Assembly (NCBI RefSeq): GCF_031624395.1 | Contig: NZ_JAMQON010000001.1 | Span: 558,001-622,000 of the forward strand | Source of the DNA: Halomicroarcula saliterrae | Lineage (GTDB): Archaea; Halobacteriota; Halobacteria; Halobacteriales; Haloarculaceae | Direction: 5' to 3' | Length of the DNA: 64,000 bases | Shown here: positions 38,467 to 38,713 of the stretch, piece after piece | How the letters are laid out: each line of letters starts with the position of its first letter | Position numbering within the stretch: position 1 is the stretch's first letter | Made by a program: the position numbers and the translations under genes | The notes under the pieces: model-generated | Database searches by the model: none | Seen by the model: only the letters and a program-made list of their open reading frames with translations | What the model was told of the DNA's origin: nothing

Positions 38467-38713
38467 TTCGTAGCGTAGGTACCGCCGTCGGGGTTAAAAG
38501 GTAATCGCCACCACGGTGAAACTGAACCGCCGCCGGCGGTGTGACCGCCTACCGGTAACGCTGTATTACGCCGCGCGTAAAGGCCGCCTACGACCCACAC
38601 GTGGCCGGACAGCCCGGCGGTGACTAGCCGACGGCGTCGCCCGGTTTTCTCGGGTTGCGCACGCGCGTGCGGGAGTTTTATGACCCCACATCTACTAAGA
38701 GGAATCAGTTCCT
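38467..38713. promoter_or_regulatory. Divergent promoter region between top6B and gyrB with an RY tract
   Basis: This gap of 247 bp serves both topoisomerase operons. Toward top6B there is a TATA-like element at 38493-38503. Toward gyrB there is TTTTATG at 38676-38682, about 35 nt from the ATG. Directly upstream of it, 38656-38671 is 16 bp of strictly alternating pyrimidine and purine, of which 38658-38671 (CGCACGCGCGTGCG) is also a perfect palindrome. At the gyrB start, AGGAA (38700-38704) and TTCCT (38709-38713) form an inverted repeat ending at the ATG. Confidence 0.75.

Follow-up and report, generated by a model that had tools for sequence, protein, structure and literature searches.

An alternating pyrimidine-purine tract conserved at the gyrB promoter across most of Halobacteriales, a candidate Z-DNA-based supercoiling-responsive element

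In Halobacterium, the bop promoter reportedly contains an RY box of 11 bp, close to or overlapping the TATA region, and the title of the study in question, by Yang et al. in 1996 (cited in PMC3184054 and PMC9348778), is said to describe bop transcription as stimulated by supercoiling. Bacterial gyrase genes were reportedly found by Menzel and Gellert in 1983 to be stimulated by relaxation. Natural Z-DNA sites have been mapped in one Halobacterium species (Kim and DasSarma 1996, as cited in PMC1971269), and a title listed in the same paper has d(CG)n Z-DNA in plasmids of E. coli and Halobacterium stabilised by repeat length and supercoiling. An earlier note on the DNA analysed here had held that high salt favours Z-DNA; the title of Kim, Yang and DasSarma 1996, as listed in PMC1971269, says 'but not salinity', and the argument from salt is not supported.

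The window, the whole 64-kb stretch of DNA that was analysed, comes from a genome whose genus includes Haloarcula sp. LUM.49. Its forward strand carries gyrB (38714..40642), which encodes DNA gyrase subunit B of 642 aa (Pfam DNA_gyraseB, DNA_gyraseB_C, HATPase_c and Toprim), and an overlapping gyrA (40627..43089), which encodes subunit A (DNA_topoisoIV and DNA_gyraseA_C) and the true start of which may be the ATG at 40639. A gap of 247 bp separates gyrB from top6B, the divergent gene for topoisomerase VI subunit B (36052..38466, reverse strand; Topo-VIb_trans), with top6A also on the divergent side. Such contiguity of gyrase and topoisomerase VI genes, likely transcribed from divergent promoters, is known from halophiles (PMC9348778). 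The 100 bp before top6B contain no long alternating tract. Before gyrB, at 38656..38671 of the forward strand, lies the Z-DNA-prone tract TGCGCACGCGCGTGCG, the 16 nt of which alternate between pyrimidine and purine exactly and perfectly, as the earlier note had claimed. The TTTTATG that it had seen just past the tract is likewise there, beginning at 38676 with 4 bases between, and provides the putative TATA box of gyrB, TTTTAT (38676..38681, forward strand). From its place relative to this box, CGGGA at 38670..38674 (forward strand) would be the BRE, and it overlaps the 3' end of the tract.

The gyrB tract shares with the bop RY box an alternating pattern within a haloarchaeal promoter, the bop box being reportedly linked to supercoiling-sensitive transcription and non-B DNA. 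With 16 nt in the window and 10-24 nt in relatives, it also has the length of the bop type (about 11 or more alternating bases). Unlike the bop box, which is said to lie near or over the TATA box, the gyrB tract stands upstream, abuts the BRE and ends 4 bp before the TATA box; and whereas the bop box concerns one gene in Halobacterium, the gyrB tract concerns gyrase in most of an order. It also resembles the natural Z-DNA sites of Halobacterium in being a haloarchaeal sequence predicted to form Z-DNA, with the difference that those sites were reportedly mapped in one species, whereas here one site at one gene is followed through a whole order.

The length of the tract says little. TGCGCACGCGCGTGCG is the longest alternating run of the window, the runners-up being 62587-62601 (15 nt) and 19332-19345 (14 nt). 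A first-order Markov model predicts about one run of at least 16 nt per 64 kb, and second-order and third-order models predict 0.57 and 0.07. Because the length is near chance under the first-order model, the mere existence of the tract is unremarkable, and we rejected run length as evidence. The whole 4.2-Mb genome holds 10 distinct YR8 runs, and one would fall at a chosen 40-bp promoter position with a chance of about 1e-4, this position having been picked after the tract was seen. It is position and conservation, not length, that make the tract noteworthy.

To assess conservation across the order, we compared gyrB upstream regions from 60 genomes and from 30 more picked for families without a match; the total sample comprised 119 gyrB promoters from 59 genera and 14 families. 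A tract was scored when alternation held for 10 nt or more somewhere from -80 to -25; by this measure 113 of the 119 promoters had one, with lengths of 10-24 nt (at least 12 nt in 96) and an end normally 2-6 nt before the TATA box. Eleven of the 14 families sampled were represented. Five of the six exceptions are the sole sampled members of families f2, f9 and f11 and have GC-poor upstream DNA; the sixth, L278, has an 8-nt run. The lineages without a tract are GC-poor and deep-branching. On a gyrB tree with other archaea and a bacterium as outgroup, in which some intein-bearing tips are misplaced, f9 and f11, followed by f2, appear to split off before the remaining families; the stem of the core group may therefore be where the element originated. 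As a side observation, some gyrB frames from scattered genera (L286, L287, L295, L278, L280 and L282, in genomes G137, G051, G069, G106, G203 and G129) are about 1050-1230 aa long compared with 640 aa. These probably contain GyrB inteins, and they misplaced their tips in early gyrB trees.

A gyrB-specific alternating element, conserved across the order, thus adjoins the BRE and TATA box. As controls we used 179 other promoters, taken from the window and, in 20 genomes, from the 20 kb that surround gyrB; in these, runs within 100 bp reached 10 nt in 8 cases and 12 nt in none. In 108 of the 119 gyrB promoters, but in 0 of the 179 controls, an alternating 10-mer stops 2-6 nt short of a TATA-like site, which just 47 of the controls have. 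Across 10 whole genomes, the pattern (YR)6-N5-TTTAW, which sets no particular base within the tract, had 9 matches, 7 of them at gyrB, against 3 for the reversed control; the narrower pattern GCGCGYRCGNG..TTTAW had 53 matches in 117 genomes, at least 39 at gyrB and at least 3 elsewhere. Outside haloarchaea, the longest run in 77 gyrB upstream regions was 11 nt, with a median of 6. The literature searched, from which the original bop and gyrB papers of the 1990s fell outside the scope, yielded no description of the gyrB tract, which may have been noted earlier in a single species.

Two further sites came to light in these scans. The sole other match of (YR)6-N5-TTTAW in the window's genome (L331, G000:C2:103234-103255, minus strand) precedes an open frame resembling a helix-turn-helix regulator. 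Runs of 10-17 nt also occur upstream of topA in a few genomes (L316, L308 and L310), away from the TATA box, and are possibly enriched over other promoters.

The earlier note had proposed asking whether alternation is kept in related haloarchaea while the bases change, and across most of the order it is; the note's reading of the tract is supported in part. Among 55 genus representatives, the tract ends comprise 23 different 10-mers (for example, CGCGCGTGCG, CGCGTACGTG, CGTACACGTG, CGCGCGCACG, CGCGTGTACG and CACGCGCATG), with a clear CG preference beyond alternation and with each of the four pyrimidine-purine steps seen at several positions. Many tracts have one in-phase interruption. We counted substitutions by parsimony on a gyrB protein tree of 71 tips, with intein-bearing sequences left out. 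Columns -1 to -8 had 33 transitions and 1 transversion, a ratio to which the alignment itself contributes, since an alternating 8-mer near the TATA box served as its anchor; that 113 of the 119 gyrB promoters have an alternating 8-mer lying 2-6 nt from a TATA-like site does not depend on this anchoring. Columns -9 to -12, which are free of the bias, had 11 transitions and 7 transversions (p = 0.026 versus the spacer), and columns -13 to -18 about 41 and 47. The upstream flank had 172 transitions and 329 transversions and the spacer after the TATA box 89 and 160, a transition/transversion ratio of about 0.55, and changes per site numbered 4.2 in the proximal tract and 33 in the upstream flank. 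Part of the transition excess could come from CpG-specific transition mutation. A within-genus test anchored on the TATA box gave transition/transversion ratios of 0.51 versus 0.40 and is uninformative because the tract shifts relative to the box within genera; the tree test anchored on the tract end was used in its place. We read these patterns as pointing to selection on purine-pyrimidine alternation with a CG preference, strongest in the 8-12 nt beside the BRE.

Within the genus, the most conserved core of the tract is GCGCGTGCG (38663..38671, forward strand), which is invariant in the 29 Haloarcula genomes with full gyrB upstream sequence and varies by transitions elsewhere. In all 29 it lies 5 bp before a TTTAT box and at a constant distance from the ATG, followed by GGA in 28 and GGG in 1, and the DNA farther upstream of the tract is unalignable by eye. 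Two further genomes with split gyrB matches also have the core. The last 12 columns of the tract show solely A/G and C/T variation in the genus, and alternating length ranges from 12 to 22. In the window's genome, CGCGCGTGCGGGA occurs a single time, at gyrB, and no second site lies within one mismatch of the 17-mer CGCACGCGCGTGCGGGA. Divergent second gyrB copies (80-81% identity) are present in two Haloarcula genomes (L335 in G025:C2 and L336 in G021:C10); L335, whose start is clear, lacks an alternating tract upstream.

The symmetry elements that the earlier note had described fared less well than the alternation. Its 14-bp palindrome, CGCACGCGCGTGCG, is perfect at 38658..38671, but the palindromy is not conserved, its centre shifting from genus to genus. 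Perfect palindromes of 14 bp are no rarity, the window holding 14 of them, and the palindrome is 14 bp long in 7 of the 29 Haloarcula genomes and 8 bp long in 15. Compared with shuffles that preserve the purine-pyrimidine pattern, palindromes are in weak excess (8 of 55 genera at p <= 0.05), and their centres lie anywhere between 3 and 23 nt away from the tract end. We therefore rejected a palindromic operator for a dimeric regulator, the signal being weak and lacking a conserved dyad with a fixed centre. A scan for intrinsic terminators fires at the palindrome, but the neighbouring gene upstream is divergent and relatives do not keep the hairpin, so this candidate was also set aside. The second inverted repeat, AGGAA-TCAG-TTCCT (38700..38713, forward strand), does end at the gyrB ATG (38714), but full pairing of its two arms is confined to 4 of 29 Haloarcula species, for which reason we rejected it as a conserved repeat. 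The TTCCT directly before the ATG (38709-38713) is invariant in the 29 species while the remaining leader varies, and is perhaps a transcript start or translation context.

What the tract might do is suggested by its contact with the core promoter. The haloarchaeal BRE consensus is CGAAA (PMC4983044); in the relatives compared, the BRE position at gyrB holds CGGGA, CGTGA or CGAGG and not CGAAA, with a TATA box present (of TTTA type in nearly all, at -36 to -40). This BRE position is usually taken by the last CG of the tract, and a flip of the tract would therefore reach the TFB site. With about even confidence, and arguing from sequence comparison, we propose that the tract is a conserved cis-regulatory element of gyrBA that responds to supercoiling through Z-DNA in most Halobacteriales. 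At normal or low negative supercoiling the tract would be B-DNA, and TFB and TBP would bind the BRE and TATA box next to it. Excessive negative supercoiling would make the CG-rich alternating tract absorb twist and flip to left-handed Z-DNA. Because the CG of the BRE forms the 3' end of the tract, the Z segment or B-Z junction would disturb TFB/TBP binding, and the twist taken up by the tract would leave a weaker drive for promoter melting. Transcription of gyrBA would then drop, less gyrase would be made and supercoiling would return. We infer Z-DNA formation in vivo, occlusion of the BRE and TATA box and the sign of the effect, which would be the reverse of that at bop, a promoter reportedly stimulated by supercoiling.

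Somewhat more tentatively, we suggest that no protein is needed and that in most haloarchaea the tract is a supercoiling thermostat, a B-Z switch set near the working superhelical density and selected for alternation over exact sequence, which would stop gyrase production when the chromosome is over-wound. In a simple B-Z model built from dinucleotide energies, a junction cost and superhelical energy, the absolute values of which are uncertain so that the contrast is what matters, the predicted threshold was sigma of about -0.037 for the window's tract, with a median of -0.038 for all gyrB tracts against -0.054 for controls, and it was no stronger than -0.045 in 55 of 59 genera. Published responses to novobiocin fit negative feedback, and gyrase homeostasis in haloarchaea has already been reported: novobiocin stimulated transcription of gyrase and of type I topoisomerase in Halobacterium salinarum R1 (PMC3184054), and, according to PMC9348778, which cites earlier work, gyrB on a plasmid rose as much as 20-fold when Haloferax was given novobiocin, with topoisomerase VI also rising in Halobacterium. 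Because topoisomerase I and VI genes respond as well and top6B in the window has no comparable tract, the tract is not the sole route to a supercoiling response. Bacterial gyrase promoters (E. coli gyrA, PMC6170449) would share with the proposed element a rise of gyrase on relaxation and hence negative feedback, the haloarchaeal data coming from other species. They differ in having sigma-factor promoters, the sensitivity of which is attributed to elements such as the spacer or discriminator, whereas here an archaeal BRE and TATA box would be coupled to an upstream Z-prone tract.

Several other explanations would produce some of the same patterns, the main rival being a degenerate protein-binding site. 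A dimeric regulator, a special TFB paralogue or a chromatin protein would read CGCGYRCG beside the BRE and control gyrBA, with alternation a by-product of a motif made of CG, TG, CA and TA steps. The preference for C and G beyond plain alternation, the constant spacing to the TATA box, the core that is identical in 29 Haloarcula genomes and the longer palindrome of some species all suit such a site. A protein would, however, have to tolerate all four pyrimidine-purine steps at several positions and lengths from 10 to 24 nt, the palindromes rise weakly above shuffles (8 of 55 genera) with no fixed centre, and a regulator would serve one gene in the window's genome, which has no second strong site. 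We consider this explanation possible but on the unlikely side. A mechanical element that acts without Z-DNA, keeping a housekeeping promoter open through bendability, exclusion of histones or other chromatin proteins, or help with TFB/TBP bending of the promoter, would account for the fixed place immediately upstream of the BRE and TATA box and for steps being kept when exact bases are not. It seems improbable, as other promoters around gyrB, many presumably housekeeping, lack the tract, and a tract that is nearly restricted to gyrB genome-wide leaves the tie to gyrase unexplained.

Z-DNA could also act in the other direction, with the Z form recruiting a winged-helix factor such as TFE and raising basal gyrBA transcription. 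The tract data are shared between this activator and the proposed sensor, and archaeal TFE has been put forward as a Z-DNA binder from a sequence motif and docking (PMC11293857). The TFE proposal is based on docking, though, and activation by high negative supercoiling would amount to positive feedback, whereas the induction reported for novobiocin points the other way; we judge an activator very improbable. Still harder to credit is coincidence, with a CG-rich run arising in a GC-rich genome and persisting through descent or mutational bias. A run of this length does arise about once per 64 kb under the first-order model and the lineages without it are GC-poor, but the flanks diverge almost completely while the tract persists across 11 families, and none of the 179 other promoters has a 12-nt tract. 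For the element as a whole, chance is refuted by the controls, the order-wide conservation and the tree parsimony.

A question of long standing is whether cells put Z-DNA to use, and natural elements maintained for their alternation over their sequence would, if the proposed reading is true, be strong evidence for a Z-DNA function. The tract recurs at gyrB, in an unchanged position, in 11 of the 14 families sampled, and with tractable genetics and a novobiocin assay the proposal is directly testable. Topology-driven gene regulation in archaea is still poorly understood (PMC9348778), and the gyrB tract would offer a cis-acting basis for archaeal gyrase homeostasis.
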